From: a virus
Reading direction: 5' to 3' (one strand)
Virus record (IMG/VR): IMGVR_UViG_3300017717_000058
Coordinates: 1 to 26,896 of that record
DNA: 26,896 bases
Below the pieces are notes generated by a model that was given only the letters and a program-made list of their open reading frames with translations, ran no database searches and was not told the DNA's origin. This document shows, in pieces, positions 10,807 to 23,792 of the stretch; the stretch's first letter is position 1; each line of letters starts with the position of its first letter. The translations under genes were made by a program, and so were the position numbers.

Positions 10807-10927
10807 GTAGTGTGCAATTTCTGTACAGTTATCAAATACTTGTTAGACTTTATAGTAGTTTCGTATTGTCAAAACTTTTTAGTCAATTTAGCTCTTTTTT
10901 GTATCTGTGTAGGTACTGTATAGATCG

Positions 10928-10967
10928 ACGAAGCCACGGCAGCCCCCCGGGGCTATGCAGGTTTCGT
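10928..10967. other. GC-rich two-part hairpin
   Basis: An outer 8-bp stem (10928-10935 with 10960-10967, including one G·T pair) and an inner stem AGCCCC/GGGGCT (10941-10946 with 10949-10954) form a compact structure of 40 bases in otherwise AT-rich sequence. Two extra G-C pairs can form between 39-40 and 57-58 (last digits). Neither strand carries a T-run after it, so it is not a standard terminator. A structured RNA or an origin element is possible. Confidence 0.5.
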
Positions 10968-11056
10968 GCCAGGTCTATCAAGACTCTATTAGACTTTGGT
11001 CTACATAGACTAAGGTATAACTATCCAGGTCTTGACAGTGTGTGGGTCTATGTAGT

Positions 11057-11068
11057 ACCCTATAGGGT
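11057..11068. repeat. Perfect 12-bp palindrome followed by a T-run
   Basis: ACCCTATAGGGT is self-complementary and is followed on the plus strand by TTTTC. As RNA it gives only a 4-bp stem with a TATA loop. It could therefore be a very weak rightward attenuator, or more likely a protein-binding palindrome. The CTATAGGG part resembles the T7 promoter core, but the rest of that promoter is absent. Confidence 0.4.
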
Positions 11069-11347
11069 TTTTCTATTTATAGGCAATGCTGCATACTACT
11101 AAAGTCTATGTTGACAGTGAAGCACCAAGTATGTTAGTCAAGACTATTCATATATTTTAGAAACCTGGTTAGACTTTAGTATAATAGACCTATGTCTAAT
11201 ACCATTGGTGCAACGCACAATATACCATGGCAATTGTCGATACAGACAACGATACAAACAGTGATAGATAAACACGTACAAACTCAAGCAGTATCGTAGT
11301 CAGTGAAACCATATTAGGCATATTGTCAAAAAAGTTTCACAAAGTAG

Positions 11348-11375
11348 TTGACAATTGAATACGAATATGCATAAT
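11348..11375 (+). promoter_or_regulatory. Candidate rightward early promoter
   Basis: TTGACA (11348-11353), a 16-nt spacer, then CATAAT (11370-11375). This is the best -35/-10 pair among the four TTGACA hexamers of the region. The start codon of the first early gene lies about 340 bases downstream, which gives a long leader containing the hairpins described below. An isolated TATAAT at 11180-11185 has no good -35. Confidence 0.5.
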
Positions 11376-11387
11376 AGAATACATAGC

Positions 11388-11522
11388 GTACAGTTTGGGT
11401 GTTGGCCACTACGAAGTGTGGACTGTACATGGCAACATAGACAACAAAAGACCCACTTCTTGGCAACGTGCAGAAGTCAGTGACTGCCACCATTATAAGT
11501 CGCATTCGTGCGCCTATGGGCG
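11388..11522 (+). other. Series of hairpins in the early leader
   Basis: GTACAGT (11388-11394) pairs with ACTGTAC (11422-11428) around CACT-ACGA-AGTG. ACTTCT (11455-11460) pairs with AGAAGT (11472-11477) around GCA-ACG-TGC. CGCA-TTCG-TGCG (11501-11512) overlaps CGCC-TATG-GGCG (11511-11522), so those two cannot form together. No reading frame of note covers the region. Processing sites or a structured leader RNA would fit. None is followed by a T-run. Confidence 0.4.
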
Positions 11523-11629
11523 TGGACACATAATAGTATGCATCCGAATCTGCCTAGTTAAATTGACCTAGCTAGCAAGCAATTGGTACTACGGTCAAAC
11601 GGCTTTATCTCTCACATGTTGCATTGACA

Positions 11630-11667
11630 GTTGGCATCAGCAAAATCCAGGTTTTGTTGGTGTCAGC
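11630..11667 (+). ncRNA. Long leader hairpin with G·U pairs
   Basis: Sixteen consecutive pairs can form between 11630-11645 and 11652-11667, closing the six-base loop TCCAGG. Four are G·U pairs (34·63, 37·60, 40·57 and 31·66, last two digits). These pair only in the rightward transcript and would be mismatches on the opposite strand. This points to an RNA-level structure in the leader of the first early gene. It is a cis element rather than a proven separate RNA. Confidence 0.55.
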
Positions 11668-11668
11668 A

Positions 11669-11716
11669 CTCAATGCATCAAGCATTGGTTAGCTAAACAT
11701 TGAGAGGTAATAGCTA
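11669..11716 (+). promoter_or_regulatory. Mutually exclusive hairpins at the first early ribosome-binding site
   Basis: CAATGC (11671-11676) can pair with GCATTG (11682-11687). Alternatively CTCAATG (11669-11675) can pair with CATTGAG (11698-11704), which covers the start of the GAGAGG ribosome-binding site. A third option pairs TAGCT (11690-11694) with AGCTA (11712-11716), placing the site in a loop and pairing the first base of the start codon. Such alternatives could tune translation. Confidence 0.45.
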
Positions 11717-11937
11717 TGAAATTCGCATCATCAAAGTCTGTTTCTTGGGTTCGTTGGTCAGCATTGCGTACAGCAAAATTGCATGGACGTAAGTTCTTCA
11801 ACCTTGTTGGCATTCGTGGGTTCGTGGCATTGCGTAAGTACAAATCACGTGGTTACACAATCCAGGCCTCACCACTGACTAAACAGGTACATCTTGGACG
11901 ACTAACAGTTGGTGTCGGCAAGTACAACTTTGCATAG
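11716..11937 (+). CDS. Very basic small early protein
   Basis: 73 residues beginning MKFASSKSVSWVRWSALRTA. It contains no Asp or Glu at all and about 15 Lys/Arg, spread evenly, with several aromatic residues. GAGAGG lies 8 bases before the ATG. I do not recognise the family. As the first gene of the early arm, with strong positive charge, it is a candidate host-takeover protein acting on DNA, RNA polymerase or ribosomes. A ribosomal-protein-like or nucleoid-binding role would also fit. No membrane span and no zinc motif are present. The same GAGGTAA-type ribosome-binding site precedes the next two genes. Confidence 0.65.
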   Translation: MKFASSKSVSWVRWSALRTAKLHGRKFFNLVGIRGFVALRKYKSRGYTIQASPLTKQVHLGRLTVGVGKYNFA

Positions 11938-11944
11938 TGTTCTG

Positions 11945-11995
11945 CCAATGGGCATTGGGTATTGACTCAGTGTCCATTATCGGTAACACTACCGA
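11945..11995 (+). other. Two hairpins between the first and second early genes
   Basis: CCAATG-GG-CATTGG (11945-11958) and the perfect 6-bp stem TCGGTA-ACAC-TACCGA (11980-11995) fill the 80-base gap. Neither is followed by a T-run, so termination is unlikely. RNase cleavage sites between early messages, as in T7, are one explanation. Confidence 0.45.
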
Positions 11996-12017
11996 AATCA
12001 TAGAGAGGTAAAGCACA

Positions 12018-12614
12018 ATGGGTAAAGAAAATATCTTGACAATCTTCAACCTGGCTACTCCAGAAGAGGTTGAGCATGGCATTACATGGTACGCTACGGC
12101 ACACTGTGAGTGTCTGTCTATTGCTGAAGACCTAGATATACCACTCAACGTAGTTGTAGGCGTGGTTGCTGCTCTGTCCCCAAATAACAAGTGGGATAGA
12201 AACATTGTAAACGCACGTGACCTGTGTACTACATACGTCAACGGTGACTCTATGGAATCGGTAAAGGTATCAACGTATGGTAAGATGAAAGAAAAGGCAT
12301 GGTCTATTCTTGAATCACAACCAGACTATGATACAACAATATCTATTCTGAATGGTCAGAAGATTGTTTGTTTCTTCCAGAACATCATGGGTGAGAATAC
12401 ATGCACCGTAGATGGTCATGCATACAACATCTTCCATGCTAGTCGGCAAAGCTTGACTGGTTCAATATCAATTGGTAAGCTGCTGTATTCTTTAATTCAG
12501 GATGCGTATCGTGATGCGGGTGAAGCTGTTCTAGTACACGGACGGCCACTCAAAGCCTATGAGATGCAAGCCATCACGTGGGTAACATGGCGTAGAATAC
12601 ACAACATACAGTGA
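12018..12614 (+). CDS. EndoIII-like (HhH-GPD fold) phage protein, putative DNA glycosylase
   Basis: 198 residues. I recognise this as a phage family usually left hypothetical. Four blocks line up in order with endonuclease III-type glycosylases: VVGVVAALSPNNKWDRNI (about 46-63, for the first helix pair), STYGKMKEKAWSIL (85-98, like the IG-Y-N-KA block), LNGQKIVCFF (111-120, at the hairpin) and TVDGHAYNIF (130-139, matching VDTH with catalytic Asp as D132). The C-terminus has QAITWVTWRR. The iron-sulphur cysteines of EndoIII are missing. If active, it would remove a modified base and so could act in repair, host DNA attack or defence evasion. This role is inferred from motif order. GAGAGG lies upstream. 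A methyltransferase-like gene follows after 7 bases. Confidence 0.6.
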   Translation: MGKENILTIFNLATPEEVEHGITWYATAHCECLSIAEDLDIPLNVVVGVVAALSPNNKWDRNIVNARDLCTTYVNGDSMESVKVSTYGKMKEKAWSILESQPDYDTTISILNGQKIVCFFQNIMGENTCTVDGHAYNIFHASRQSLTGSISIGKLLYSLIQDAYRDAGEAVLVHGRPLKAYEMQAITWVTWRRIHNIQ

Positions 12615-12621
12615 GGTAACT

Positions 12622-13203
12622 ATGAGAGTTCTAGTAGCATGTGAGTACAGTGGTAAAGTCCGTGAAGCCTTCCGCAAACGTGGGCATGATGCATGGTCTT
12701 GTGATCTACTACCTGCAGATGATGACAGTCCGTACCATTACCAAGGTGATGTGATGGACATACTGAATGATGGTTGGGATCTACTGATTGGGCATCCACC
12801 ATGTACATACCTCAGTAATGCAGGTGCTAGACATTTGTATCCTAAAGGTGTGTTAAACAAGGATAGGCTTGCTCTGGGTCTAGAAGCTAAAGAGTTCTTT
12901 ATGAAACTGGATAGTGCAGCTATACCTAAGATTTGTTTAGAGAATCCTATACCTTCAAAGGTTTACGGACTACCGCAGTACACACAGACAATACAACCTT
13001 ATGAGTTTGGTCATCCAACATCTAAGAAAACTTGTTTGTGGTTACATGGGTTAGATCAACTACAGCCAACAAACATTGTAGAGAAACAAGAGTCCACCAA
13101 AGTGCCAGGTAATTGGTTCAACAAAGGTGGTAAGGATCGTTGGAAGAAACGTAGTGAAACATTTCAAGGCATTGCTGATGCAATGGCAGAACAGTGGGGA
13201 TAG
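12622..13203 (+). CDS. Short cytosine-C5 DNA methyltransferase-like protein
   Basis: 193 residues. The N-terminus (VLVACEYSGKVREAFRKRG) replaces the usual FxGxG cofactor loop but keeps the following acidic strand end (WSCDLLP). GHPPCTYLSNAG (57-68) gives the PC motif with catalytic C61. LENP (106-109) is the ENV-type motif VI. A closing RSETFQGIADAMAEQWG helix resembles motif X. At 193 residues there is no room for a target-recognition domain, as C5 methyltransferases usually exceed 300 aa. It may depend on a partner, modify short or single-stranded targets, or have another activity. GAGGTAA lies before ATG. It follows the EndoIII-like gene closely, suggesting joint function. Confidence 0.7.
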   Translation: MRVLVACEYSGKVREAFRKRGHDAWSCDLLPADDDSPYHYQGDVMDILNDGWDLLIGHPPCTYLSNAGARHLYPKGVLNKDRLALGLEAKEFFMKLDSAAIPKICLENPIPSKVYGLPQYTQTIQPYEFGHPTSKKTCLWLHGLDQLQPTNIVEKQESTKVPGNWFNKGGKDRWKKRSETFQGIADAMAEQWG

Positions 13204-13206
13204 ACA

Positions 13207-13431
13207 ATGAGTGAAGTTAAAGCATCAAGGTACGTCTTCTCACGTATACCAAATACGGACGAAGGTAGAGAGTTACTAGCTCAGATGAAGAAATATTTTA
13301 ACCGGGATCGGTACAAGATTAGAGTATATGGTCAAGGATTAATAGAAGGCCATCGATGGAAGAACCATAGATATGGTGCTCCACTGAGTTTATCAACACA
13401 CTTACGAGTGTACATTGAAGAGAGAAAATGA
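13207..13431 (+). CDS. Small basic hypothetical protein
   Basis: 74 residues with the conserved-looking stretch YVFSRIPNTDEGRELLAQMK followed by NRDRYKIRVYGQGL. It is rich in Arg, Lys and Tyr, and the C-terminal half is probably beta-stranded. I recall similar short proteins in the early regions of marine phages but know no function. It starts three bases after the methyltransferase-like gene, with GGGGAT as ribosome-binding site, and probably shares its transcript. Confidence 0.6.
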   Translation: MSEVKASRYVFSRIPNTDEGRELLAQMKKYFNRDRYKIRVYGQGLIEGHRWKNHRYGAPLSLSTHLRVYIEERK

Positions 13432-13441
13432 TGGGTAAGTT

Positions 13442-13648
13442 ATGAATACTAGCAGGAATGAAAACAGAATCAGAGTCAATCGCTTGATCGACAAACAAAC
13501 AGGGGAGGCTTTGGATTTACTCAACGAGGCAATGGTGATACTGCACGATACCGGTGACACAGAGTCTGAGACGCTCGATCAAGTAATGACATCGCTAAAG
13601 TACACCACACAGAAACTAACGGAGTACAGGGTGAATGATAGACTATGA
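13442..13648 (+). CDS. Small helical hypothetical protein
   Basis: 68 residues, mostly charged helix, with the segment GEALDLLNEAMVILHDTGDT and a C-terminal helix. It has no cysteines, membrane span or known motif. It lies 10 bases after the previous gene, and its end overlaps the next start by 14 bases. It is part of a run of small early genes between the methyltransferase-like gene and the primase-helicase. Function unknown. Confidence 0.5.
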   Translation: MNTSRNENRIRVNRLIDKQTGEALDLLNEAMVILHDTGDTESETLDQVMTSLKYTTQKLTEYRVNDRL

Positions 13649-13835
13649 TCCGCAAACAGGATGTGATGATGGCTATGACGAAGCACTCAAGTTCTGCATC
13701 GATGAGATCATTGAAGAGATCCACAGAGTAAAGGAGCTAGACAGCATGCGAGTGGAGAATATTTACTACTCTATGTTTAGCAAGGAAATAAACGAACGAT
13801 ACCAGGAATATCTAAATGACTGTCGAACTGATTAA
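13635..13835 (+). CDS. Small acidic hypothetical protein
   Basis: 66 residues starting MIDYDPQTGCDDGYDEALKF. It is acidic and helical. Two thirds of the way in, the frame reads MRVENIYYSMFSKEINERYQ. It overlaps the preceding gene by 14 bases and the following 28-residue membrane protein by 20 bases, so coupled translation is likely. I do not recognise it. Small acidic phage proteins are often inhibitors of host nucleic-acid-binding enzymes, but nothing specific supports that here. Confidence 0.55.
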   Translation: MIDYDPQTGCDDGYDEALKFCIDEIIEEIHRVKELDSMRVENIYYSMFSKEINERYQEYLNDCRTD

Positions 13836-13902
13836 AGTGTACGCTGTAGCTTGCATACTAGTCTTTTGTATGCTATACTACCTAGACCACATCAAGGAGT
13901 AA
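13816..13902 (+). CDS. 28-residue single-span membrane protein
   Basis: ATG 13816 opens a short frame ending TAA at 13902. After MTVE comes one continuous hydrophobic segment (LIKVYAVACILVFCMLYYL) and a charged end (DHIKE), a clear single membrane helix. It starts within the last 20 bases of the previous gene, and its last codons carry the AAGGAG ribosome-binding site of the next. Very small membrane proteins of this type are common in phage early regions. Function is unknown. Confidence 0.55.
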   Translation: MTVELIKVYAVACILVFCMLYYLDHIKE

Positions 13903-13905
13903 ACA

Positions 13906-14091
13906 ATGCGTTGTAAAGCATGTAACAAACAACTGAGTGACTTTGAGTCTACTCGTAGAGGCTTTGAGTCTGGAGAGTTCATTGATCTCTGTAACGAGTG
14001 CTTTGGCACAGTGGCAGAAGACTTCAATGTGACTGAACGTGAAGACCTAAAACATCTGGAAGATGAAATAACACTTGACAAAATTGACTGA
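13906..14091 (+). CDS. Small zinc-ribbon protein
   Basis: 61 residues beginning MRCKACNKQLSDFESTRRGF. Two CxxC pairs (C3/C6 and a pair in LCNECF near 29-32) should bind one zinc ion. The tail is acidic. I recognise this compact ribbon from cyanophages and other marine T7-like phages, where its function is unknown. It is preceded by AAGGAG seven bases before the ATG. A sigma70 promoter begins inside its last codons, so the next genes can be transcribed separately. Confidence 0.7.
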   Translation: MRCKACNKQLSDFESTRRGFESGEFIDLCNECFGTVAEDFNVTEREDLKHLEDEITLDKID

Positions 14092-14102
14092 CATGATATA
14101 AT
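14075..14102 (+). promoter_or_regulatory. Rightward sigma70 promoter before the primase cluster
   Basis: TTGACA (14075-14080), a 16-nt spacer, then TATAAT (14097-14102), with TG one base before the -10. It overlaps the end of the zinc-ribbon gene. The next start codon is at 14192. The roughly 80 bases between them are AT-rich and contain repeated AGTA/TACT units (14127-14153), possibly an operator or a small hairpin. Confidence 0.8.
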
Positions 14103-14191
14103 AACTATATAGATACATAGCTTCTTAGTACTAGTATTAGTATTACTACTACTTATCTTTGAATAACTAGATACTACATAGGACTATAAAG

Positions 14192-14368
14192 ATGGACATA
14201 AAAGACGCACGTGAGATGCATGAGCACCAGACACTGACTGCGTGTGCTGCTCTCATTAAAGACCTAGGACTATCCGAATTCTTACATCGGTTAGGAAACT
14301 ACTCACCGGAACCTGGTTTGGTATTCGTAACAGGTTACGCACTCAAGTTGGAGAAAGACAATGAATAA
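14192..14368 (+). CDS. Small hypothetical protein (58 aa)
   Basis: ATG 14192 with AGGA eight bases upstream opens a 58-residue frame: MDIKDAREMHEHQTLTACAA at the start and GLVFVTGYALKLEKDNE at the end. It is the first gene after the promoter at 14075-14102 and overlaps the next start by 8 bases (AATGAATAA). The head is a charged helix and the rest is mixed. No motif is recognised. The overlap and spacing support it as a real gene. Confidence 0.6.
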   Translation: MDIKDAREMHEHQTLTACAALIKDLGLSEFLHRLGNYSPEPGLVFVTGYALKLEKDNE

Positions 14369-14558
14369 AAACATATACTCAGTCGATGACTTTGAAGAGT
14401 ACCTGTCAGAGCTATCAGTCGGCACAGAATATGCACAGAAACTAACAGAGTTTGTTCGGTTCAAACAGAAACAAGTAACAACACTGAATAGTCGCCTAAT
14501 GACTGCACATTCAATGATCGGTGAGCTAATGCTCCAAGAGAGAATAGACTATGAATGA
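14361..14558 (+). CDS. Small helical hypothetical protein
   Basis: 65 residues (MNKNIYSVDDFEEYLSELSV at the start), predicted to be two charged helices. The second (KLTEFVRFKQKQVTTLNSRL) looks like a short coiled coil. GGAG lies seven bases before the ATG. The gene overlaps its neighbours on both sides by 8 bases and leads into the primase-helicase transcript. Function unknown. Confidence 0.6.
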   Translation: MNKNIYSVDDFEEYLSELSVGTEYAQKLTEFVRFKQKQVTTLNSRLMTAHSMIGELMLQERIDYE

Positions 14559-14859
14559 CATCAGCACAGTGATACTGGTCAGAGAGTTAGACAAGAGGCT
14601 ATCAGACTGGAATCGAGATCCTGATCCACAGTATGATGGGTTCTTCTACTACCTGTCTAAAGGTCAGTCACAGATGCTAGAGTACAGCATCGGTGCTGTT
14701 CTGCAAAAGTATGCTCAGGCTTCAATTAAGAACTTAATTGAGAATGATCCAGAACTGTACGCACAGTACAAGGATCAGTTAGCCAAGCTAGAATCAAAAC
14801 AAGGAGAAGTAAATGGCGTGGGAACAGAAACATCTGCCGTGTCCCAAGTGCGACAGTAG
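14551..14859 (+). CDS. Hypothetical protein upstream of primase-helicase
   Basis: 102 residues. The core is helical with a conserved-looking aromatic patch (DPQYDGFFYYLSKGQSQMLE). The C-terminal quarter is encoded by bases shared with the first 15 codons of the primase-helicase in another frame (47-base overlap). The clear AAGGAG for the primase lies inside this gene. No catalytic motif is visible. Adjacency to the replication enzymes suggests a replication accessory, which is inference only. Confidence 0.55.
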   Translation: MNDISTVILVRELDKRLSDWNRDPDPQYDGFFYYLSKGQSQMLEYSIGAVLQKYAQASIKNLIENDPELYAQYKDQLAKLESKQGEVNGVGTETSAVSQVRQ

Positions 14860-16447
14860 TGATGCATACTCCATCAGTCGCAATGACAAGGGTGAACTCT
14901 GGGGTAAGTGCTTTAGCTGTGATGCTAACGTTCCTATAGAAACCGACTCTGTATCAAGCTACGACATGCACCATAGTAGAGTCGTATCTATCAAGCAGAG
15001 ATTGTCCGATACAGGGCAGTACAATGCGTCTCAGGGTCTATCCTACCGTGCTATTCCGACACGTAAGATCGATGTCAACACGATGGAGAAGTATGGTGTA
15101 GGATTCAGAGGTAACGACATTATTTTTCCATACGGTAATGATACCTCTGCAAAGGTACGCATCAATGGTGACAAACAATTCAAGACTGAAGGTGAATGGA
15201 ATGACACTCCTTTTCTCTTTGGTCAGGAACGATTCAATGCAGGTGGACACCGTGTACTTGTAGTTGAAGGAGAGTTTGATGCACTTACTGCCTACCAGAT
15301 GCTAGGTTCAAAGTACCCAGTAGTCTCTGTACGTAATGGTGCGCAGTCTGCGATCAAAGACTGTCGTAACAACTACGAGTGGCTTGACAGCTTTGACGAG
15401 ATCATCTTTAACTTTGACAACGATGAACCTGGTCAGGCTGCTCAGACTAAGTGTGCTGAATTGTTTGCACACAAGTCAAAGGTAATGACACCAGTCAATG
15501 GTTACAAGGATGCCTGTGACTTTATCAAAGGTAATCAGAAGACATACTCTGATAACTTCTGGCAGTCACAGAAGTGGACACCACAGGGTATCGTGGCAGG
15601 TTCATCCATCTATGATGATGTGATGAAACCACTGGCTGAAGCTGACTGCATGTACCCGTATGATGGTCTTAACAAGATGACATATGGTATACGACAGGGT
15701 GAGATGTTAACGATCACAGCAGGGTCTGGACTAGGTAAGTCACAGTTCCTACGTGAAATTGTATGGCATATACTACAAAACACCAATGAAAAGATTGGCT
15801 TGATGTTCTTGGAAGAGTCGGTACGCAAGACAGGCCTGTCGATCATGTCACTGGCTGCAGATAAACCACTGCATCTTCCTGACTGTAAGGCTACTCAGGA
15901 AGAAAAGGATGATGCATTCAAGCAGACACTAGGTACTGACCGACTGTTTCTCTTTGACCACTTTGGTAGCTCTGACATTGACAACATCATCAACCGTGTA
16001 CGATACCTAGCCAAGGCAGTAGGATGTCGTTACGTATTCCTAGATCACATCTCGATTGTGGTATCCGCACAGTCCAACGGTGATGAACGGAAGGCCATTG
16101 ATGAGATCATGACCAAGCTACGTACACTGGTACAGGAGACTAACATTGCACTGGTCTGTGTGTCACACCTCAAACGTCCTGATTCAAAGGGACATGAAGA
16201 AGGTGCTGCCACATCACTGGCACAGTTACGTGGATCTGGTAGTATCGCACAGTTATCTGACATGGTGATCGGTCTTGAACGTAACGGTCAGGCAGATGAT
16301 GAGACAGAACGTAACACCACCCGTGTACGTGTGCTCAAGAATAGATTCTGTGGTACAACAGGCCCGGCATGTAGTCTTCTCTACTCACTAGACACCGGAC
16401 GTATGACGGAGTATGATGAACAAGACGAGGCGGAGCAAGCCCTATGA
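14813..16447 (+). CDS. DNA primase-helicase (T7 gp4-like)
   Basis: 544 residues. The zinc-binding domain has C10, C13, C33 and C36. The TOPRIM primase domain contains VVEGEFDA (150-157) and the acidic NFDNDEPG (200-207). The helicase domain has Walker A AGSGLGKS (303-310), a glutamate at LMFLEES, Walker B YVFLDH (407-412) and VCVSHLKRP (448-456), then LRGSGSIAQLSDMVIGLERN. All T7 gp4 modules are present in order, so one protein would both make primers and unwind DNA 5'-3' as a hexamer ahead of the polymerase encoded two genes later. AGGAG lies seven bases before the ATG. The stop overlaps the next start as ATGA. Confidence 0.92.
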   Translation: MAWEQKHLPCPKCDSSDAYSISRNDKGELWGKCFSCDANVPIETDSVSSYDMHHSRVVSIKQRLSDTGQYNASQGLSYRAIPTRKIDVNTMEKYGVGFRGNDIIFPYGNDTSAKVRINGDKQFKTEGEWNDTPFLFGQERFNAGGHRVLVVEGEFDALTAYQMLGSKYPVVSVRNGAQSAIKDCRNNYEWLDSFDEIIFNFDNDEPGQAAQTKCAELFAHKSKVMTPVNGYKDACDFIKGNQKTYSDNFWQSQKWTPQGIVAGSSIYDDVMKPLAEADCMYPYDGLNKMTYGIRQGEMLTITAGSGLGKSQFLREIVWHILQNTNEKIGLMFLEESVRKTGLSIMSLAADKPLHLPDCKATQEEKDDAFKQTLGTDRLFLFDHFGSSDIDNIINRVRYLAKAVGCRYVFLDHISIVVSAQSNGDERKAIDEIMTKLRTLVQETNIALVCVSHLKRPDSKGHEEGAATSLAQLRGSGSIAQLSDMVIGLERNGQADDETERNTTRVRVLKNRFCGTTGPACSLLYSLDTGRMTEYDEQDEAEQAL

Positions 16448-17040
16448 AGCAATGTAAGCACTGTGGTGAGCACAAACCACTCGATCAATTCCATAATAAA
16501 ACTGGAGCACCGGACGGTAAGCAGGTGAACTGCAGGGACTGTAGACGTACTGTTGAACGTTACCGTAACACAGACCGTATGTTTGTGAATGGTAAGTTCA
16601 TACCTAAGTCACACCCACTACATAAACCTGGCCGATTCAAGACACTTGATGACGCATGGTCACACACTGAGATTGATACACGCAGCACAGAAGGTGAAGT
16701 GTACATCATTCGCAACCCTGCATTTCCTAACTGGCTTAAGGTAGGTAAGGCAGTAAACAGTGAAGATCGACTGAATGGTTATCAAACCTCTTCACCTTTT
16801 CGTGATTATGTGTTAGAATATTGTGAACACTTTGACAACAGACATGAAGCTGAAGCAACTATCCATGCCCTGTTAGAGAAACACGATCAGTGTATGGAAC
16901 GCAAGGGAGAATGGTTCAAAACTTTCATCCCAACAATCAAAGAGGTTATGAATGAGCACCGCACAACGCAAGTTAGTACTGGATATCGAGACGAATCTAG
17001 CTCGCAACACAATCTGGATCTGTGTCACGCAGGATGTTAG
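16444..17040 (+). CDS. Zinc-ribbon plus GIY-YIG (T5orf172-type) nuclease
   Basis: 198 residues. Residues 1-35 carry a zinc finger (C4, C7, C30, C33) like that found on phage HNH/endonuclease VII-type proteins. A linker with KFIPKSHPLHKPGRF follows. Residues 84-160 match the T5orf172 branch of GIY-YIG nucleases: GEVYII (84-89), WLKVGKA (97-103), R109, the helix with E136, and GEWF (155-158). It lies between primase-helicase and polymerase, linked upstream by ATGA. Its last 89 bases overlap the polymerase gene in another frame. It may be a homing-type endonuclease or a recombination/DNA-processing nuclease. Location within replication genes suits the first, and operon-like coupling suits the second. 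Confidence 0.75.
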   Translation: MKQCKHCGEHKPLDQFHNKTGAPDGKQVNCRDCRRTVERYRNTDRMFVNGKFIPKSHPLHKPGRFKTLDDAWSHTEIDTRSTEGEVYIIRNPAFPNWLKVGKAVNSEDRLNGYQTSSPFRDYVLEYCEHFDNRHEAEATIHALLEKHDQCMERKGEWFKTFIPTIKEVMNEHRTTQVSTGYRDESSSQHNLDLCHAGC

Positions 17041-18616
17041 TACAGGAGAAGTTCAATGTCATACAGACTCGTCAACATTAAAGCCACTGGTAGAACAGTA
17101 CGATCTAATCATCGGTCACAACTTAATTGGTTTCGATGCACCAGTGTTGCGGAAAGTCTGGAACATTGGGATCAAGAAATCGAAAGCGGCAGACACCTTG
17201 ATTCTTTCAAGACTTTTGAATCCACAACTAGAAGGTGGACACAGCCTGAAGGCATGGGGGAGTAGGTTACGAAATGCTAAAGTTGATTTTGCAGTGGAAG
17301 ACTTTGATGGTGGACTCACTGAAGAAATGCGTAAGTACTGCATCCAAGATGTTAGTCTCACTTGTGACTTATACAAGTACCTTATGTCAGAACTTAATCA
17401 GTGGAAGGATCCATCGCAGAGTATACTACTGGAGCACGACATCGCAGTCATCTGTCGCAACCAAGAAACCAACGGGTTTAGACTTGATGTACCTGAGGCT
17501 ATCTCTCTGCGCAATGAGCTTGCAGATAAGATGGATGGTATTGAAGTTGAACTGCAGTCTATTTTTCCGCCGATTGTTGAAGAACGGTGGTCTGAAAAAA
17601 CAAGCAAACAACTAAAGGACAAGGTGACTGTCTTCAATGTCGGCAGTCGTAAACAAATCTCTGAACGATTGATGACTCTAGGATGGAAGCCTAAAAAATT
17701 CACAGATAAAGGTCAACCCATCGTAGACGAGACTACGTTAGAGAACATACAGATACCACAGGCACAGAAGATTGCTGAGTATCTGATGATGCAGAAACGT
17801 GTTGGTCTGCTGGAATCCTGGCTAAAGTTTGTACAGGATGACGACAGAGTACACGGTGCAATCATTACTAACGGTGCTGTAACCGGACGTATGACACACC
17901 ATAGTCCCAACATGGGACAGATACCTTCAGTCAATAAACCATACGGTGAACGATGCCGACAGCTATGGACAGTTGATGTGGGTCACGTACTGGTTGGTAC
18001 TGACTTATCAGGTATTGAGTTGCGTTGTTTGGCTCATTACATGCAGGATGATGCATGGCAGGATGAACTACTCAACGGTGATATCCACCAGAAGAACGCA
18101 GATGCTGCAGGTATTACAAGACCACAGGCCAAGACACTAATCTATGCTACGTTGTATGGAGCAGGCCCGGCCAAGGTTGGTAGCATCGTCAATGGTGGAG
18201 CACGTGAAGGCAATGAGATACTACATCGTTTCTACTCTAACACTCCTGCACTGCAGAAGTTGATGGAGAAAGTAAAGAAGGTAGCAACTAAAGGCTACGT
18301 ACCTGGACTAGACGGAAGGAGAATTCTTGTTAGATCAGAACACGCAGCACTCAACTCACTGTTACAAGGATGTGGTGCAATCATTGCAAAGCAGTGGGCT
18401 ATTGAAGCGCACAAGGAGTTCAAAGCACAGGCAGTACCTGTTAAGCAGGTTGCCTTTGTGCATGATGAAATCCAAATTGAAACACCGGAGAAGTATGGTG
18501 AACAGGTTGCGCAAATCATGTGCAATTCGGCCTCACAATCCGGGATTACCTTGGGCTTTCGATGCCCAGTAGATGCCGAATCAAAGATCGGTAACAATTG
18601 GTTTGACACACACTAA
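16952..18616 (+). CDS. DNA polymerase, family A (T7-like)
   Basis: 554 residues. The 3'-5' exonuclease has VLDIET (D11, E13), GHNLIGFD (D62) and YCIQD (Y129, D133). The polymerase has motif A DLSGIELR (D351), motif B RPQAKTLIYATLYG (K394, Y398, Y402) and motif C HDE (504-506). All active-site residues are present. The position equivalent to E. coli Phe762 is Tyr398, as in T7. The protein is about 150 residues shorter than T7 gp5 (704), and no obvious long thumb insertion for a processivity factor is visible. The start is set by GAGG six bases upstream and by motif I at residue 11. The first 89 bases overlap the nuclease gene. Confidence 0.95.
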   Translation: MSTAQRKLVLDIETNLARNTIWICVTQDVSTGEVQCHTDSSTLKPLVEQYDLIIGHNLIGFDAPVLRKVWNIGIKKSKAADTLILSRLLNPQLEGGHSLKAWGSRLRNAKVDFAVEDFDGGLTEEMRKYCIQDVSLTCDLYKYLMSELNQWKDPSQSILLEHDIAVICRNQETNGFRLDVPEAISLRNELADKMDGIEVELQSIFPPIVEERWSEKTSKQLKDKVTVFNVGSRKQISERLMTLGWKPKKFTDKGQPIVDETTLENIQIPQAQKIAEYLMMQKRVGLLESWLKFVQDDDRVHGAIITNGAVTGRMTHHSPNMGQIPSVNKPYGERCRQLWTVDVGHVLVGTDLSGIELRCLAHYMQDDAWQDELLNGDIHQKNADAAGITRPQAKTLIYATLYGAGPAKVGSIVNGGAREGNEILHRFYSNTPALQKLMEKVKKVATKGYVPGLDGRRILVRSEHAALNSLLQGCGAIIAKQWAIEAHKEFKAQAVPVKQVAFVHDEIQIETPEKYGEQVAQIMCNSASQSGITLGFRCPVDAESKIGNNWFDTH

Positions 18617-18632
18617 CAAAATGTGTTATAAT
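18603..18632 (+). promoter_or_regulatory. Rightward sigma70 promoter before the ssDNA-binding gene
   Basis: TTGACA (18603-18608), an 18-nt spacer, then TATAAT (18627-18632), with TG one base before the -10. It begins in the last codons of the polymerase gene. The spacer contains an inverted repeat ACACA...TGTGT that could be an operator. The next start codon is 33 bases downstream of the -10. Confidence 0.8.
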
Positions 18633-18664
18633 ATATAGTATACCACCAACAAAAGGAGAATGGT

Positions 18665-19075
18665 ATGGAAAGTACACAACGAGTAAAGATCAGTGCCGAT
18701 GTTATGTGGGCATACATGGACAAGCCTAACGACATGTCAGGCAAGTATCAGATTGATCTCTGCCAGTTGTCTGATGCAGCAGTCAATGCATTAGAAGGGA
18801 TGGGCATTACTGTCCGTCAGAAAGAAGACAAGGGTTACTTTATTACCTGTAAGTCTAACAATCCTATTCGTGCTTATGCTACGAACGGTGATACCCTTGA
18901 AGGTATCTCAATCGGCAACGGCTCCAAGGCTGTTGCGATGATTACTCCATACGCATGGAAGTATCAGAAGAAGGAAGGTGTATCTCCTTCACTCCGCAAA
19001 CTAGTTATCAATGAGTTAGTCACCTATGAAGGTGTCGATTCTGCTGATGACTCAGACGGTGATGAGGTTCTGTAA
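18665..19075 (+). CDS. Single-stranded DNA-binding protein (gp2.5-type)
   Basis: 136 residues: a beta-rich body with conserved-looking MDKPNDMSGKYQIDLCQL and KEDKGYFITCKSNNPI segments, and a strongly acidic tail (SADDSDGDEVL). Marine T7-like phages carry ssDNA-binding proteins of this build. The acidic tail would contact the polymerase and helicase, as in T7 gp2.5, although the last residue here is Leu and not an aromatic. AGGAGA lies upstream. Its own promoter fits the large amounts needed. The stop shares one base with the exonuclease start (TAATG). Confidence 0.75.
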   Translation: MESTQRVKISADVMWAYMDKPNDMSGKYQIDLCQLSDAAVNALEGMGITVRQKEDKGYFITCKSNNPIRAYATNGDTLEGISIGNGSKAVAMITPYAWKYQKKEGVSPSLRKLVINELVTYEGVDSADDSDGDEVL

Positions 19076-19746
19076 TGAACCACGCCTTGATTGATGCAGA
19101 TATTCTAGTGTACCGTATTGGTTTTGCAACTAATGACGACACAGAAGACATGGCAATCAGAACTATGGCAGGTTTTATTGAAGATATCTTGATGGTTGAC
19201 CTGCCTCAAGTTCAAAGATGGGAACTCTTTTTAACAGGAAAGAATAATTTCCGGTATGATTATGCCACTACTGCACCATACAAAGGCAATCGTACTTCAG
19301 ACAAGCCAGTACACTACGGACTGCTACGTGAATATCTTATGGCGGCCTGGTCAGCACATGTGACTGACGGGTTAGAGGCAGATGATATGCTAGCAATCCG
19401 TTCTACTGAGCTAGGGGATGATAGTGTGTTGATTACTCTTGACAAGGATCTCGATCAAGTTGTTGGTTGGCATTATAACTTTGTTAAGAAAATTAAATAC
19501 TTCATCACCGAACCTGAAGGACTTCTTAATTTCTACAAGCAGTTTCTCGTTGGTGATCGTATTGATAACATCATCGGCGTTAAAGGAATTGGTGCCAAGA
19601 AAGCCCAGAAGTTACTAGAAGACAAGTCGGAGCAAGAGATGTGGGGTGTAGTTGTTGAACTACTTGGTGAAGAACGTGCAATGGAAAACGGTCACCTACT
19701 CTACATGCTCCGCAGTCTGGACGATAAGTTTACTGCTCCTGTATGA
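19075..19746 (+). CDS. 5'-3' exonuclease (T7 gp6 / FEN-like)
   Basis: 223 residues. Metal-binding acids are in the expected order: D7 and D9 (LIDADIL), E101/D103/D104 (GLEADDMLA), D123/D125 (TLDKDLDQ) and D161/D164 (GDRIDN). A helix-three-turn-helix follows (IIGVKGIGAKKAQKLL, about 166-181). The arch-region YKGNR (69-73) is present. The enzyme degrades DNA from 5' ends, removes primers and recycles host DNA into nucleotides for the reductase encoded downstream. It is coupled to the ssDNA-binding gene by TAATG and to the next nuclease by ATGA. Confidence 0.88.
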   Translation: MNHALIDADILVYRIGFATNDDTEDMAIRTMAGFIEDILMVDLPQVQRWELFLTGKNNFRYDYATTAPYKGNRTSDKPVHYGLLREYLMAAWSAHVTDGLEADDMLAIRSTELGDDSVLITLDKDLDQVVGWHYNFVKKIKYFITEPEGLLNFYKQFLVGDRIDNIIGVKGIGAKKAQKLLEDKSEQEMWGVVVELLGEERAMENGHLLYMLRSLDDKFTAPV

Positions 19747-20084
19747 AAGCATCGTCAGCCAAAGCAAAAGGCAGAAGACTGCAACAAGCAGTACGTGATG
19801 CAATCTTAACTCAGTACCCTACACTAGAACCAGATGATGTACGTAGTACTTCAATGGGTGCAGGTGGAGAAGATGTTCTCCTATCTCCTGCTGCTAGGAA
19901 ACTCTTTCCCTACTCTGTAGAGTGTAAGAATCTAGCAAAGATTGTAGTGTACAATTATTATACACAAGCAGAAACAAACTCAGGTAAGTACGAACCTTTA
20001 GTGGTGATTAAACAAAACAGGTCAAAACCCCTAGCAGTAATAGACTTTGACCACTTTATGGAGTTGATAAGGAGAAAGAAATGA
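19743..20084 (+). CDS. PD-(D/E)xK nuclease, probable Holliday-junction resolvase-like
   Basis: 113 residues. The core motif is D44 in GGEDVLLS followed by E60-x-K62 in SVECKN, the PD-(D/E)xK signature. A basic head (AKAKGRRLQQAVRD) carries a likely first helix. The tail has PLVVIKQNRSKPLAVIDFDH, a strand pair typical of resolvase-like folds. In T7 the corresponding slot holds endonuclease I, which cuts branched DNA before packaging. The family here is different but the job may be the same. ATGA overlaps link it on both sides. Confidence 0.75.
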   Translation: MKASSAKAKGRRLQQAVRDAILTQYPTLEPDDVRSTSMGAGGEDVLLSPAARKLFPYSVECKNLAKIVVYNYYTQAETNSGKYEPLVVIKQNRSKPLAVIDFDHFMELIRRKK

Positions 20085-20302
20085 GTAGACTTGATGACCT
20101 GTTTTATGACGATGATAGCATGACTCGCGTTCATTTTAGCTACCGTTCTTGCGGTAAAAGTATTTCATTAAACAATGACTATGTTATTGATGTAACATGG
20201 GATGAAGTCCTTGACGATGTGATTCGTACATTGGAATCACACTATGGTTATACCTTTGATCTTACAGACTTCTTAGTTAAGGCAGGACGTAACGATGGTT
20301 GA
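20081..20302 (+). CDS. Small acidic hypothetical protein
   Basis: 73 residues (MSRLDDLFYDDDSMTRVHFS at the start), acidic, with a probable strand-rich middle (VIDVTWDEVLDDVIRTLESH) and a helical end. It has no motif that I recognise. It overlaps the resolvase-like gene by 4 bases and the DUF3310 gene by 8, so it is embedded in the replication operon. Function unknown. Confidence 0.6.
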   Translation: MSRLDDLFYDDDSMTRVHFSYRSCGKSISLNNDYVIDVTWDEVLDDVIRTLESHYGYTFDLTDFLVKAGRNDG

Positions 20303-20528
20303 TCTTAATGACCTTGCAGACAGACTACGACAGATTGGGGGTGAGCATTACACTAGCAAAAAGGTACAACCTTGGGATGCAATGGAGTCTTGGTTGACTG
20401 AAGAGCAGTTCAAAGGTTTTATGTTAGGTAACGTTATCAAATACTTAGCTAGGTTTCAAGACAAGGGTGGGCAGACTGACTTAGAAAAAGCCAGGCACTA
20501 CCTTGACAAATGCATTGAACTCTGGTAA
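20295..20528 (+). CDS. DUF3310 protein (T7 gp1.7-like core)
   Basis: 77 residues with the full DUF3310 pattern: GEHY (16-19), VQPWDAM (24-30), FMLGNVIKYLARF (42-54), KGG (57-59) and DLEKARHYL (62-70). In T7 this domain forms part of gp1.7, reported as an unusual nucleoside monophosphate kinase without a Walker motif. Here the domain stands alone. Its place next to the ribonucleotide reductase genes supports a role in nucleotide supply, but catalysis by this short form is not shown. A promoter begins in its last codons. Confidence 0.8.
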   Translation: MVDLNDLADRLRQIGGEHYTSKKVQPWDAMESWLTEEQFKGFMLGNVIKYLARFQDKGGQTDLEKARHYLDKCIELW

Positions 20529-20531
20529 AAT
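20503..20531 (+). promoter_or_regulatory. Rightward sigma70 promoter for the reductase genes
   Basis: TTGACA (20503-20508), a 17-nt spacer, then TAAAAT (20526-20531), with TG one base before the -10. It overlaps the end of the DUF3310 gene, and the next start lies 15 bases downstream of the -10. It would let nrdA and nrdB be transcribed independently of upstream genes. Confidence 0.72.
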
Positions 20532-20545
20532 AATAGGTTCGCTCT

Positions 20546-20722
20546 GTGCTTACATTAGAAGATATAAAACAAAAGCTCAAACAACTTGATGAGATTACTT
20601 TGATGGAGACATTAGAAATTACATCAGAAGATCTTGTCAACAAGTTTGTAGACCGGATCGAAGAACAACAAGAACGACTGGAGAATGATTTAGATGACCA
20701 CATACCTTGGGATAACGATTGA
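20546..20722 (+). CDS. Small helical protein before nrdA (GTG start)
   Basis: 58 residues from GTG 20546: MLTLEDIKQKLKQLDEITLM at the start (GTG read as Met), then an acidic helix (DRIEEQQERLEN) and the end DDHIPWDND. I recognise this LTxEDIKxKLxxLDEITL...SEDLV pattern as a recurrent small phage protein of unknown function. There is only a weak AGG before the start, and no in-frame ATG occurs until codon 20, inside the conserved pattern. Its last 29 bases overlap nrdA. It is the first gene after the promoter at 20503-20531. Confidence 0.68.
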   Translation: MLTLEDIKQKLKQLDEITLMETLEITSEDLVNKFVDRIEEQQERLENDLDDHIPWDND

Positions 20723-22451
20723 TTATGAAAGAGACAGTCGCCTCAGTGCTCAAGCAGATAAACTTATGCGTGACTACTACATGTTCGAGCATGAAGACTC
20801 ACCTCAACAATCCTTTGCGCGGGCTGCGGTTGCTTACTGCAAAGATGACCTCGATCTTGCTCAACGCATTTACGACTATGCTAGCAAAGGTTGGTTTATG
20901 TTTTCGTCACCTGTGCTTTCAAACGCACCTGACAATACACGAAACAATCGGGGCTTGCCTATTAGTTGTTTCCTTACTTACTTGGGGGACAATCTTAATA
21001 GCCTTATTGAACACAATGGTGAAGTAGCATGGCTTTCCGTAAAGGGCGGTGGTGTGGGTGGGCATTGGTCAGATATCAGGGGGATCAGCGACAAAGCACC
21101 AGGCCCAATACCATTCATGAAAGTAGTGGACAGTCAGATGACAGCCTACAAACAGGGCAAGACAAGGAAGGGAAGCTACGCAGCCTACCTAGACGTAAGT
21201 CATCCTGACATTGAAGAGTTCATTTCTTTCAAAGTACCGACTGGTGGAGACATCAATCGGAAATGTTTTAATTTATTTAATGCTGTGAATATCACAGATG
21301 ATTTTATGGAGAGTGTAATTAATGATACAGAATGGAACCTTACAGACCCGTCTACAGGAATTGTCAGAGATACAGTCCAAGCTCGCAAGCTGTGGCAACG
21401 AATTCTTGAAGCTAGGTTCAGAACTGGTAGCCCGTACCTTAACTTTATCGACACAGCCAGAAGAGCTTTACCAGAAGCTCAGAAAAGGCTTGGACTATCA
21501 ATTAACGGCAGCAACCTCTGCAATGAAATCCATCTCGCAACAGATGAACAACGAACAGCCGTCTGTTGTCTCTCATCCGTCAACCTTGAATACTACTCTG
21601 AGTGGCGAGCAAGTAGCATGGTTGCAGACCTTATCAGATTCTTGGATAACGTCATTCAATACTTTATCGACAACGCACCAGAAGAACTGGGAAAAGCTGT
21701 CTACTCAGCATATCGAGAGCGTTCAGTCGGCCTTGGAGCAATGGGCTTCCACGGCTACCTCCAATCAAAAGGACTAGCGTGGGAATCATGGAAGGCTACA
21801 AGTGAAAACTATCGTATATTCCAAGACATCAAACAACAAGCAGAGTATTCTACTTACCAACTTGCTATCGAGCGTGGGGAATGTCCTGACGGCTATGGTA
21901 CTGGTCTTAGGAATATGCATCTACTTGCTATCGCTCCTAACGCTAACAGTTCTATTCTGTGTGGTTGCTCTGCCAGTATCGAGCCTCGTATTAGCAATTG
22001 TTATGTACACAGGACTCGTGCAGGGTCTCACACAGTACGCAATCCGTACCTGGCGGAGTTACTCACGGAGAAAGGTCAGAACACTAAGAAGGTTTGGCAG
22101 TCTATTATGGAGGCTGAAGGATCGGTACAGCATCTGGAGTTTCTATCGGACGTTGAGAAAGATACTTTTAAAACAGCCTTCGAGTTAGACCAGAACTGGG
22201 TTGTTGAGCATTCAGCCAAACGGCAAGAGTTTATCTGTCAAGGGCAGAGTGTCAACGTATTCTTCCCATCTGGTACGGACAAGGCTATTGTCAATCAGGT
22301 ACACCTTAAGGCGTGGAAGGAAGGACTTAAAGGATTATACTATCTCAGAACGACTGCGGGTGTTACGGCTGAGAAGGTTGGAACTAAGGTAGATCGTAAT
22401 GCCCTGAAAGACTTTGAAGACGATGAAGTCTGTGTTAGTTGTCAGGGATAA
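20694..22451 (+). CDS. nrdA: Class I ribonucleotide reductase, large subunit
   Basis: 585 residues. The active-site cysteine pair is C92 (LPISCF) and C291/C292 (AVCCLSSVNL). The radical site motif NLCNE gives N274, C276 and E278. The tyrosine pair for radical transfer is in KGLYYLRT, and the C-terminal redox tail is CVSCQG (C580, C583). The protein starts directly at the catalytic barrel, so the N-terminal ATP-cone present in the 761-residue E. coli enzyme is missing and dATP shut-off is not expected. It reduces ribonucleotides to deoxyribonucleotides for phage DNA synthesis. Two long open frames on the same strand inside it (21322-21777, 21802-22188) are shadows. Confidence 0.93.
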   Translation: MTTYLGITIDYERDSRLSAQADKLMRDYYMFEHEDSPQQSFARAAVAYCKDDLDLAQRIYDYASKGWFMFSSPVLSNAPDNTRNNRGLPISCFLTYLGDNLNSLIEHNGEVAWLSVKGGGVGGHWSDIRGISDKAPGPIPFMKVVDSQMTAYKQGKTRKGSYAAYLDVSHPDIEEFISFKVPTGGDINRKCFNLFNAVNITDDFMESVINDTEWNLTDPSTGIVRDTVQARKLWQRILEARFRTGSPYLNFIDTARRALPEAQKRLGLSINGSNLCNEIHLATDEQRTAVCCLSSVNLEYYSEWRASSMVADLIRFLDNVIQYFIDNAPEELGKAVYSAYRERSVGLGAMGFHGYLQSKGLAWESWKATSENYRIFQDIKQQAEYSTYQLAIERGECPDGYGTGLRNMHLLAIAPNANSSILCGCSASIEPRISNCYVHRTRAGSHTVRNPYLAELLTEKGQNTKKVWQSIMEAEGSVQHLEFLSDVEKDTFKTAFELDQNWVVEHSAKRQEFICQGQSVNVFFPSGTDKAIVNQVHLKAWKEGLKGLYYLRTTAGVTAEKVGTKVDRNALKDFEDDEVCVSCQG

Positions 22452-22454
22452 ACA

Positions 22455-22673
22455 GTGAACGAATATGAACGAGCATTGACCACAATGGGAGAGTCTGGAG
22501 TAGTCATCATTGATGCACTCTTCAGGCTCTGTGTTGTTGTGTTAGTAGACATAGCCAACCTGTTAGGTATTAGCTATGAAGCCTTGAACATTTGGCTGTT
22601 TGTAATTGTTCAACCTAGTATAATAATTTATTTGGCCTGGAAACTATGGAAGAGAAAACACAAAACTTACTAA
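22455..22673 (+). CDS. Two-span membrane protein between nrdA and nrdB
   Basis: 72 residues from GTG 22455, with AGGG seven bases upstream. There is no in-frame ATG nearby. Two hydrophobic spans lie near residues 15-36 (GVVIIDALFRLCVVVLVDIA) and 45-64 (LNIWLFVIVQPSIIIYLAWK), with a basic tail (KLWKRKHKTY). The build resembles small holins, but the setting is the nucleotide-synthesis operon, far from the lysis cassette. It may anchor or tune a membrane process early in infection. Function unknown. Its end overlaps the next gene by 28 bases. Confidence 0.6.
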   Translation: MNEYERALTTMGESGVVIIDALFRLCVVVLVDIANLLGISYEALNIWLFVIVQPSIIIYLAWKLWKRKHKTY

Positions 22674-22858
22674 AAAGACTAGATTTAATTAAAGACCACG
22701 ACCCATTTAATAAACGATTACTTAATGACTGCTTTAATTTATTGCAAGAAGCTAATCAAGAAATACAACGATTACAGTACCATAACAACAACCTGATGAA
22801 TGTAATATATCAGAATCAAGATACCTTGGAGACACTACATGAGCCTACTAGAGAGTAA
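22646..22858 (+). CDS. Small coiled-coil protein before nrdB
   Basis: 70 residues (MEEKTQNLLKRLDLIKDHDP at the start), polar and almost wholly helical, with a likely coiled coil near residues 30-60 (LLQEANQEIQRLQYHNNNLM). It overlaps the membrane-protein gene by 28 bases and nrdB by 20 bases. No enzyme motif is present. It may be a partner of the membrane protein or of the reductase. Neither is supported beyond position. Confidence 0.55.
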   Translation: MEEKTQNLLKRLDLIKDHDPFNKRLLNDCFNLLQEANQEIQRLQYHNNNLMNVIYQNQDTLETLHEPTRE

Positions 22859-23792
22859 CGTAACATACAAACCATTCAAGTATCCTTGGGCTGTGAAGTA
22901 TGCGACAGAACATGAACGCATACACTGGATTGAAGATGAGTTAGAACTACAAACAGACGTTAATCATTGGAAGTCAGATGCCCTATCGAAAGCAGAGAAG
23001 AACCATATCACCCAGATCCTGCGGTTATTTACGCAGACTGACGTTGCGGTGGGAACAAACTACTTGGAGTATTACATTCCCAAGTTTAAGAACAATGAGA
23101 TCAGAGCCATGCTCACGGCCTTTGCTTCACGAGAGTTCATCCACCAACGAGCCTACGCCCTGCTCAATGATACTCTGGGACTACCTGAAGAAGAGTTCAC
23201 AACCTTCTTAGAGTATCAGCAGATGGCTGAGAAGGTAGATTTTATGGGTGACATTGACATGCATAGTCATCAAGGAACTGCACTGGCTATCGCACGTTCT
23301 GTACTTAATGAAGGCATGTCACTGTTTAGTGCGTTTGCTATGCTCTTAAATTATCAACGTCAGGGTAAGATGCCCGGAATGTGTACAGTTGTTGAGTGGT
23401 CAGTACGTGATGAGTCACAACACGCAGAAGGTATGGCTAAATTATTTAGGGAGTTCTGCGATGAGCATCCACGAGTAGTGAATGATGATTTCAAGAAAGA
23501 TATCTACGAGATGTTTCGTACTGCAGTCAAACTTGAAGACAAGGTTATTGATCTTGCGTATGAGATGGGTGACTTGGAAGGTCTCCCGGCGGCAGATGTT
23601 AAGCAGTACATTCGCTATCTCGCAGACAGACGTTTACTGCAACTTGGTCTCAAGACGAATTGGAAGGTTAAGGAGAATCCTTTGCCGTGGATGGAAGAAT
23701 TATTAGGTGGTAGTAGTATGAGTAACTTCTTTGAGAAAAGAGTAACCGACTACAACGCACACGGGCTAGAAGGAGATGATTGGGGATGGTAA
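22839..23792 (+). CDS. nrdB: Class I ribonucleotide reductase, small (radical) subunit
   Basis: 317 residues. The di-metal ligands map as D68 (TQTDVAV), E99 and H102 (SREFIH), E158 (LNEGMSL), and E192 and H195 (RDESQH). Y106, four residues after H102, matches radical Tyr122 of E. coli, so the subunit is of the tyrosyl-radical type and not a Phe or Leu variant. The C-terminus (GLEGDDWGW) is acidic and aromatic, as needed to dock on NrdA. It supplies the radical for the NrdA reaction. It completes an nrdA/nrdB pair separated by two small genes, and its stop overlaps the next start by 7 bases. Confidence 0.93.
   Translation: MSLLESNVTYKPFKYPWAVKYATEHERIHWIEDELELQTDVNHWKSDALSKAEKNHITQILRLFTQTDVAVGTNYLEYYIPKFKNNEIRAMLTAFASREFIHQRAYALLNDTLGLPEEEFTTFLEYQQMAEKVDFMGDIDMHSHQGTALAIARSVLNEGMSLFSAFAMLLNYQRQGKMPGMCTVVEWSVRDESQHAEGMAKLFREFCDEHPRVVNDDFKKDIYEMFRTAVKLEDKVIDLAYEMGDLEGLPAADVKQYIRYLADRRLLQLGLKTNWKVKENPLPWMEELLGGSSMSNFFEKRVTDYNAHGLEGDDWGW

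Follow-up and report, generated by a model that had tools for sequence, protein, structure and literature searches.

Covarying hairpins at the early-cistron junctions of an uncultured phage as candidate RNA-processing signals

The early region, its leader and its relatives

The window, meaning the whole stretch of 26,896 bases that was analysed, is IMG/VR record IMGVR_UViG_3300017717_000058 of an uncultured phage. Its leftward genes encode terminase, portal-like and capsid proteins, its rightward genes encode a DNA primase/helicase, polymerase A and ribonucleotide reductase, and the closest polymerase matches came from the pelagiphages HTVC104P and HTVC103P (45% identity). Neither the scan of nine proteins nor the ORF list showed an RNA polymerase gene; therefore, the early genes are probably read by the host polymerase. 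The predicted sigma-70 promoter of the early leader (Table 1) is the only strong one before the early genes and is near-invariant among the type I relatives. Transcription would be expected to start near 11382, leaving about 335 nt of leader ahead of gene B, the first early gene. A start downstream of 11667, which the earlier note on this DNA had named as evidence against its own reading, was not borne out, the only strong conserved promoter lying upstream. Gene B had no Pfam match and only a sub-threshold PHROG match (E 0.077).

About 10 distinct relatives, few and partly redundant, were collected from IMG/VR via gene B, a DNA pattern, the small terminase and gene C, while a DNA search of phage GenBank records gave no match and a search of genome contigs with the 73-aa gene B family found none. 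Several of them, L004 (2724-2918), L036, L075 and L120, carry an optional early gene A (~64 aa, MDIQDSIDFDARWE...) between the leader and gene B. Two types of leader occur upstream among the relatives, and the hairpin P1 described below is common to both. The non-coding leader itself (11386-11600 in the window; also L006, L010, L075 and L120) is strongly conserved over about 230 nt, with a mean column identity of 82% in type I and 87% in type II, and could be a separate structured RNA. Its 5' end (11388-11455) resembles a pseudoknotted RNA: the stem GUACAGU (11388-11394) / ACUGUAC (11422-11428) shows compensating changes with two double-change pairs, and a possible second helix, UGGGU / ACCCA, becomes UGAGG / CCUCA in L021 with a one-base register shift as seen by eye. 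Repeats of the TTATACTAARGTCTAT / TAGACTAAAGTATAAT type lie between the divergent gene blocks (11150-11200 in the window; 2078-2231 in L004; also L084, L113 and L127), and the same motif stands ahead of early genes in distant relatives.

Table 1. Features of the early leader and of the junction between genes B and C, in window positions
Feature	Position	Strand	Description
Predicted sigma-70 promoter of the early leader	11348-11375	+	TTGACA-N16-CATAAT; 11/12 consensus matches; best-scoring in the window's leader
Anti-SD tract, 5' strand of P0	11604-11620	+	UUUAUCUCUCACAUGUU; pairs with the SD region in the fold
P1	11618-11679	+	lower stem 10 bp, 2x2 internal loop, upper stem 17 bp
P1 lower stem	11618-11627 / 11670-11679	+	10 bp
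P1 2x2 internal loop	11628-11629 / 11668-11669	+	CA / AC, between the stems
P1 upper stem	11630-11646 / 11651-11667	+	17 bp, loop CCAG
P2	11671-11687 (11671-11676 with 11682-11687)	+	CAAUGC / GCAUUG; competes with the P1 lower stem
Weak alternative hairpin	11690-11716 (11690-11695 with 11711-11716)	+	UAGCUA / UAGCUA; seen in the sequence
P0 3' strand	11696-11711	+	holds the SD GAGAGG (11702-11707); from folding
Gene B, first early gene	11716-11937	+	73 aa, basic, conserved in relatives at 79-100%
Sister hairpin before gene C	11935-11991	+	lower stem 10 bp, 2x2 loop, upper stem at least 11 bp
P2-like hairpin	11980-11995	+	UCGGU / ACCGA; reuses the lower 3' strand of the sister hairpin; read from sequences
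SD of gene C	12003-12008	+	GAGAGG; read from sequence
Gene C (second gene)	12018-12614	+	DUF7178, Pfam PF23802

Hairpin P1, its partner P2 and the sister hairpin

The earlier note had described a 16-bp hairpin at 11630-11667, and folding placed it at this position with 17 pairs, 16 of them below a terminal U-G, including the four wobbles that the note had counted (631-666, 634-663, 637-660 and 640-657, last three digits of each position). The hairpin continues downward through a 2x2 internal loop into a lower stem that had not been noticed, and the complete structure is referred to as P1. Folding of the 355-nt leader, one of the checks proposed in that note, gave a structure more stable than 100 of 100 shuffles (z -4.0), and in an 80-nt sliding scan along 10,900-23,800, scored against dinucleotide shuffles, 11605-11684 was the best site (z -7.5).

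Covariation among relatives, another of the proposed checks, was present for both P1 and P2. Across 11 homologous copies of P1, 97.4% of cells were paired with double changes at 6 pairs and a covariation score of 0.405 vs 0.220 in shuffles, and as a control, sliding the partner by 1-3 columns lowered the pairing to 29-45%. The paired columns held 41 G-U vs 0 A-C cells, which bears out the earlier statement that the wobbles pair only in the rightward RNA, and the covariance model of P1 scored 67.8 bits on the + strand vs 24.5 on the - strand. The model also recovered held-out copies in L120 (two) and L171. Among the nine gene-B leaders the lower stem was kept except for one pair broken in four of them, and the loops varied among relatives apart from the 2x2 loop, above which lies the box GCAYU/AGUGY with a preferred U-G wobble. 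These structures derive from single-sequence folding and small alignments, with the boundaries of P1 and P2 trimmed by eye before alignment.

Screening of 80 terminase relatives and 80 gene-C relatives found P1 in the close group only. In more distant phages, possible short cousin stems precede gene C (1449-1474 / 280-305 in L178/L179; 1449-1474 in L182); these stems, of the form TTGACA-AGUGAYGRCAUU..AGUGUCRUCACU, carry the same box without the lower stem. Pattern matches in L013-L062, outside the phage group, and in L158/L162 were judged to be chance after the sequences had been read.

The 3' strand of the P1 lower stem (UCAAUGC in the window) is reused by P2, a short hairpin in which 100% of cells were paired with double changes at 2 pairs in the nine gene-B leaders. 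P2 and the P1 lower stem are both kept, and therefore the middle strand stays complementary to both of its neighbours. The held-out L171 fits the two helices as well, with GUUAUCUUGA/UCAAGGUAAU for the lower stem and CAAGGU/ACCUUG for P2. The mutually exclusive pairings proposed in the earlier note are thus real in the sense that the P1 lower stem and P2 share bases, as do P0, the pairing of the anti-SD tract with the SD region, and the weak UAGCUA hairpin. The latter would leave the SD unpaired in its loop, and a pairing like it was found by eye in only about half of the relatives. A conserved upstream peptide was also considered and rejected: the mini-ORF ATG-TTG-CAT-TGA (11616-11627) overlaps P1 and is absent in relatives by eye.

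A sister hairpin of the same build, which the earlier note had not noticed, precedes gene C and is the second-best fold of the scan (z -6.3). In its alignment, 98.6% of cells were paired with double changes at 8 pairs, the same box GCAYU/AGUGY recurs above the internal loop as in P1, and its model recovered held-out copies in L019, L171 and, as a second copy, L021 (1083-1137). Its paired columns held 22 G-U vs 0 A-C cells, which brings the total with P1 to 63 vs 0. Because G-U cells occur and A-C cells do not, selection acted on the rightward RNA and not on a DNA palindrome. An inverted repeat working at the DNA level, as a repressor operator or a replication element, would be consistent with the overlap of some copies with promoter-like hexamers, but it is scarcely credible against the 63 vs 0 count and arm sequences that covary rather than stay fixed; a DNA operator palindrome as the main cause was ruled out by the strand asymmetry of the wobbles. 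P1, P2 and the sister hairpin are evolutionarily maintained RNA, and it is virtually certain that a real, conserved structure of the rightward RNA has been identified.

The sister hairpin has its own P2-like hairpin, which is absent in L021 and weaker in L010 and L075, and its lower stem begins at the stop codon of gene B. Both in the window (11935-11944) and in L075 (2402-2411), the upstream gene ends with its stop codon inside the lower stem of the following hairpin, on the 5' side, and a terminating ribosome could melt that lower stem and favour the P2-like hairpin. Relatives with gene A have one P1 ahead of gene A and another ahead of gene B, and in L021 an extra gene is accompanied by an extra sister hairpin. 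In addition, the sister hairpin is retained when the downstream gene is swapped: it precedes DUF7178 in the window, L004, L036 and L171, a phrog_1392 protein in L006 and L019, and others in L021. The hairpin therefore follows the junction and not the gene, as expected for a generic inter-cistronic signal rather than a gene-specific sensor, and the series points to generic inter-cistronic processing or insulation instead of a ligand switch or the autoregulation of a single gene. The box with its preferred wobble recurs in both hairpins above the 2x2 loop, and an RNA-binding protein of the phage or the host might recognise box and loop to repress or stabilise each of the early cistrons with no cut; this explanation is improbable, considering that no candidate protein was identified and that different genes follow the hairpin in different phages, which argues against autoregulation by one product.

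Predicted masking of the first ribosome-binding site

One of the pairings in the earlier note was said to cover the GAGAGG site, and P0, the CUCUC tract (11605-11620) paired with the SD region (11696-11710), is the only one found to engage the GAGAGG bases themselves. In the window, the unpaired probability of the SD was 0.00 in the uncut leader and 0.32 after removal of the 5' part, and shuffling the 60 nt upstream of P1 freed the SD in 200/200 trials. The six leaders in which gene B comes first gave unpaired probabilities of 0.00, 0.00, 0.11, 0.17, 0.01 and 0.16, and shuffles left the SD as closed in 0, 0, 14, 10, 0 and 12 of 200 trials, which are not independent as these leaders are related. 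CUCUC was kept in all six (6/6), and L171 shows a compensating change in the P0 helix, CUCUCUA with UAGAGAG.

No masking was found where gene B lies behind gene A (shuffles as low in 93, 149 and 19 of 200), the SD of gene B being mostly open in these copies before any cut, and gene A's own SD was unmasked too (83, 79, 55 and 31 of 200). Masking as a general property of the series was accordingly rejected and is restricted to the gene-B-first leaders. When a cut was simulated by removing the part upstream of the P1 3' side, at a position picked by hand, the SD opened to 0.32-0.83 in the six gene-B-first leaders, and P2 stood at the new 5' end in 10/10 leaders (the nine gene-B leaders and L171). 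From these folding calculations, the SD is probably masked in the intact leader.

The earlier note had interpreted the leader as an RNA switch, thermosensor or attenuator. Part of this stands, in that the RBS can be hidden, the alternative helices are mutually exclusive and both of them covary, while the three specific mechanisms found no support. The SD stayed closed from 5 to 55 C in 6/6 leaders, which speaks against a thermosensor; no terminator-like site was found in 11100-12100, as transcription attenuation would need; and neither an Rfam match nor a conserved pocket was found for a ligand switch. The Rfam search, at the gathering threshold and at E<=1, returned nothing relevant, and the T7 early region was also without a match, so the absence says little about processing sites. 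With the same hairpin standing before unrelated genes, a thermosensor, riboswitch or attenuator is highly improbable.

Insulation is another reading of the same stems, which would shield upstream 3' ends and downstream 5' ends from exonucleases, the masked SD being a side effect. The sister hairpin starting at the gene B stop codon agrees with such a role, as does the 5'-terminal position that P2 would take, considering that hairpins left by RNase III processing can stabilise mRNA (PMC5371410). The restriction of the anti-SD pairing to gene-B-first leaders is left unexplained, and there is only a slim chance that insulation accounts for the series.

A proposed processing model and its relation to known systems

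Starting from the computed exclusive pairing and from the predicted masking and its loss, we infer a cut, an enzyme, an order of events and an effect on translation. Host RNA polymerase would start near 11382 and make a polycistronic early RNA. As long as this RNA is intact, the CUCUC tract upstream of P1 would pair with the gene B SD to form P0, and P1 would close the junction, leaving the first gene masked. P1 would then be cut by a nuclease of the host that is specific for double strands, most likely RNase III. With the departure of the 5' fragment and its anti-SD, the 3' strand of the P1 lower stem would be free to pair with its downstream partner as P2, so that the newly made 5' end carries a hairpin, and the SD would become accessible. 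No RNase III gene is encoded in the phage record, and therefore a host enzyme is assumed; the cut of P1 by host RNase III is proposed because of the T7 arrangement and the release of the adhE RBS by RNase III.

In size and build, the hairpins, with 21 bp or more and a 2x2 loop, match a substrate of RNase III. P1 and the sister are imperfect hairpins that reach or exceed ~20 bp and contain an internal loop, and such hairpins are placed before genes A, B and C and the extra genes, with one conserved promoter upstream. By computation, the SD is masked before and free after removal of the upstream part, as at an adhE-type RBS. Some observations stand against the processing model: the copies behind gene A have one broken lower-stem pair and an SD mostly open uncut; promoter-like hexamers within the hairpins of many relatives could yield a short mRNA without a cut; and the T7 gene 0.3 control showed neither SD masking nor release by the same method (0.44 to 0.31). 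P1 has an even chance of being an inter-cistronic RNA-processing signal, the first of the early-cistron hairpin series, that acts like the T7 early RNase III sites, and the case for an RNase III-type cut as the trigger is likewise evenly balanced.

Good sigma-70-like hexamer pairs, mostly 17 nt apart, were observed inside the hairpins of L006, L010, L019, L075, L120 and L171, and P1 of the window retains TTGACA without a good -10. The main rival to processing holds that the hairpins house internal sigma-70 promoters, so that short mRNAs start inside P1, from P2 onward, and long read-through RNAs from the leader promoter are silenced by P0/P1 with no nuclease involved. Every copy of P1 has TTGACA or TTGATA at its internal loop, and in L006, L010, L075, L120 and L171 a TANNNT or CATAGT hexamer follows after N17. 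The second copy in L004/L036 reads TTGACT-N17-TACAGT, the sister hairpins of several relatives have TTGACA in the apical loop and TACATT at N17-18, and distant relatives show by eye a promoter ahead of each early gene; a start inside the hairpin would yield the same mRNA as a cut, a short one beginning near P2. The candidates in the window are less convincing, with a poor TTGACA-N18-CAGGTT in P1 (7.4 vs a background median of 8.1) and a modest one in the sister hairpin (8.7). Moreover, a promoter does not explain a covarying helix that forms in the rightward RNA only, selection for which requires transcription from upstream. Internal promoters are likely in some relatives and weak in the window, and as the explanation of the series they are doubtful. 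The cut and the internal start may both operate, in different phages.

A broader and rather unlikely reading is that each early cistron brings along a modular RNA element made up of P1 with its box and 2x2 loop, P2 as a partner for strand exchange and, in many cases, an embedded promoter. Read-through RNA would then be untranslatable, only RNA cut or started inside the hairpin would be translatable, and cistrons could be inserted or swapped with the control kept. If the cut were confirmed, early-mRNA maturation known mainly from T7-like coliphages would also serve aquatic phages in which no RNA polymerase is seen, with an added device: a single cut would both expose the first ribosome site and free a strand to fold into a new hairpin at the 5' end. 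The recurrence of the hairpin with each gained or swapped early gene provides natural replicates for the way host-takeover genes are plugged into an early operon, and the covariance models could be used to locate such junctions in phage genomes that lack annotation.

When the T7 early region was scanned in the same way, the known RNase III regions were among the top folds (about 844, 1408, 5848 and 6388). In T7, RNase III cuts the early RNA of ~7,000 nt at five sites into mono- and dicistronic mRNAs and aids the translation of several of them (PMC4858673). The series described here resembles R0.3, R0.5, R1, R1.1 and R1.3 in that RNA made by the host polymerase carries long, imperfect hairpins, interrupted by internal loops, ahead of its first early gene and at the junctions of early cistrons, although cleavage is known in T7 and proposed here. 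Features that set the present series apart from T7 are the lower-stem strand shared with P2 and the predicted masking of the first SD by a tract upstream; the same computation did not reproduce this masking for T7 gene 0.3, and it is therefore not claimed that T7 uses it. Against the T7 early region (L163), covariance model R1 gave no match and model R2 a chance-level one (13.9 bits, E 1.5), and without sequence homology to the T7 sites no common descent is claimed.

The lambda N leader is tied to N autoregulation and antitermination, and no N-like system was identified in this phage. Like P1, it holds a leader hairpin of the first early gene, which PMC5371410 and PMC4858673 cite as processed by RNase III. 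In Escherichia coli adhE, the RBS is occluded by RNA structure until RNase III frees it, and the adhE leader and lambda cIII resemble the P1 leader in that RNase III relieves the occlusion (PMC5371410); they differ in being single cellular or phage genes without a sister hairpin for each cistron. Type I toxin mRNAs are likewise kept inactive by their structure until the 5' part is removed (PMC11228461), as is predicted for the leader here, and are distinguished by an antisense antitoxin RNA, of which none was identified in this case. The series most likely represents phage early-mRNA processing hairpins of a known type, to which an SD mask and a strand-exchange partner have been added.
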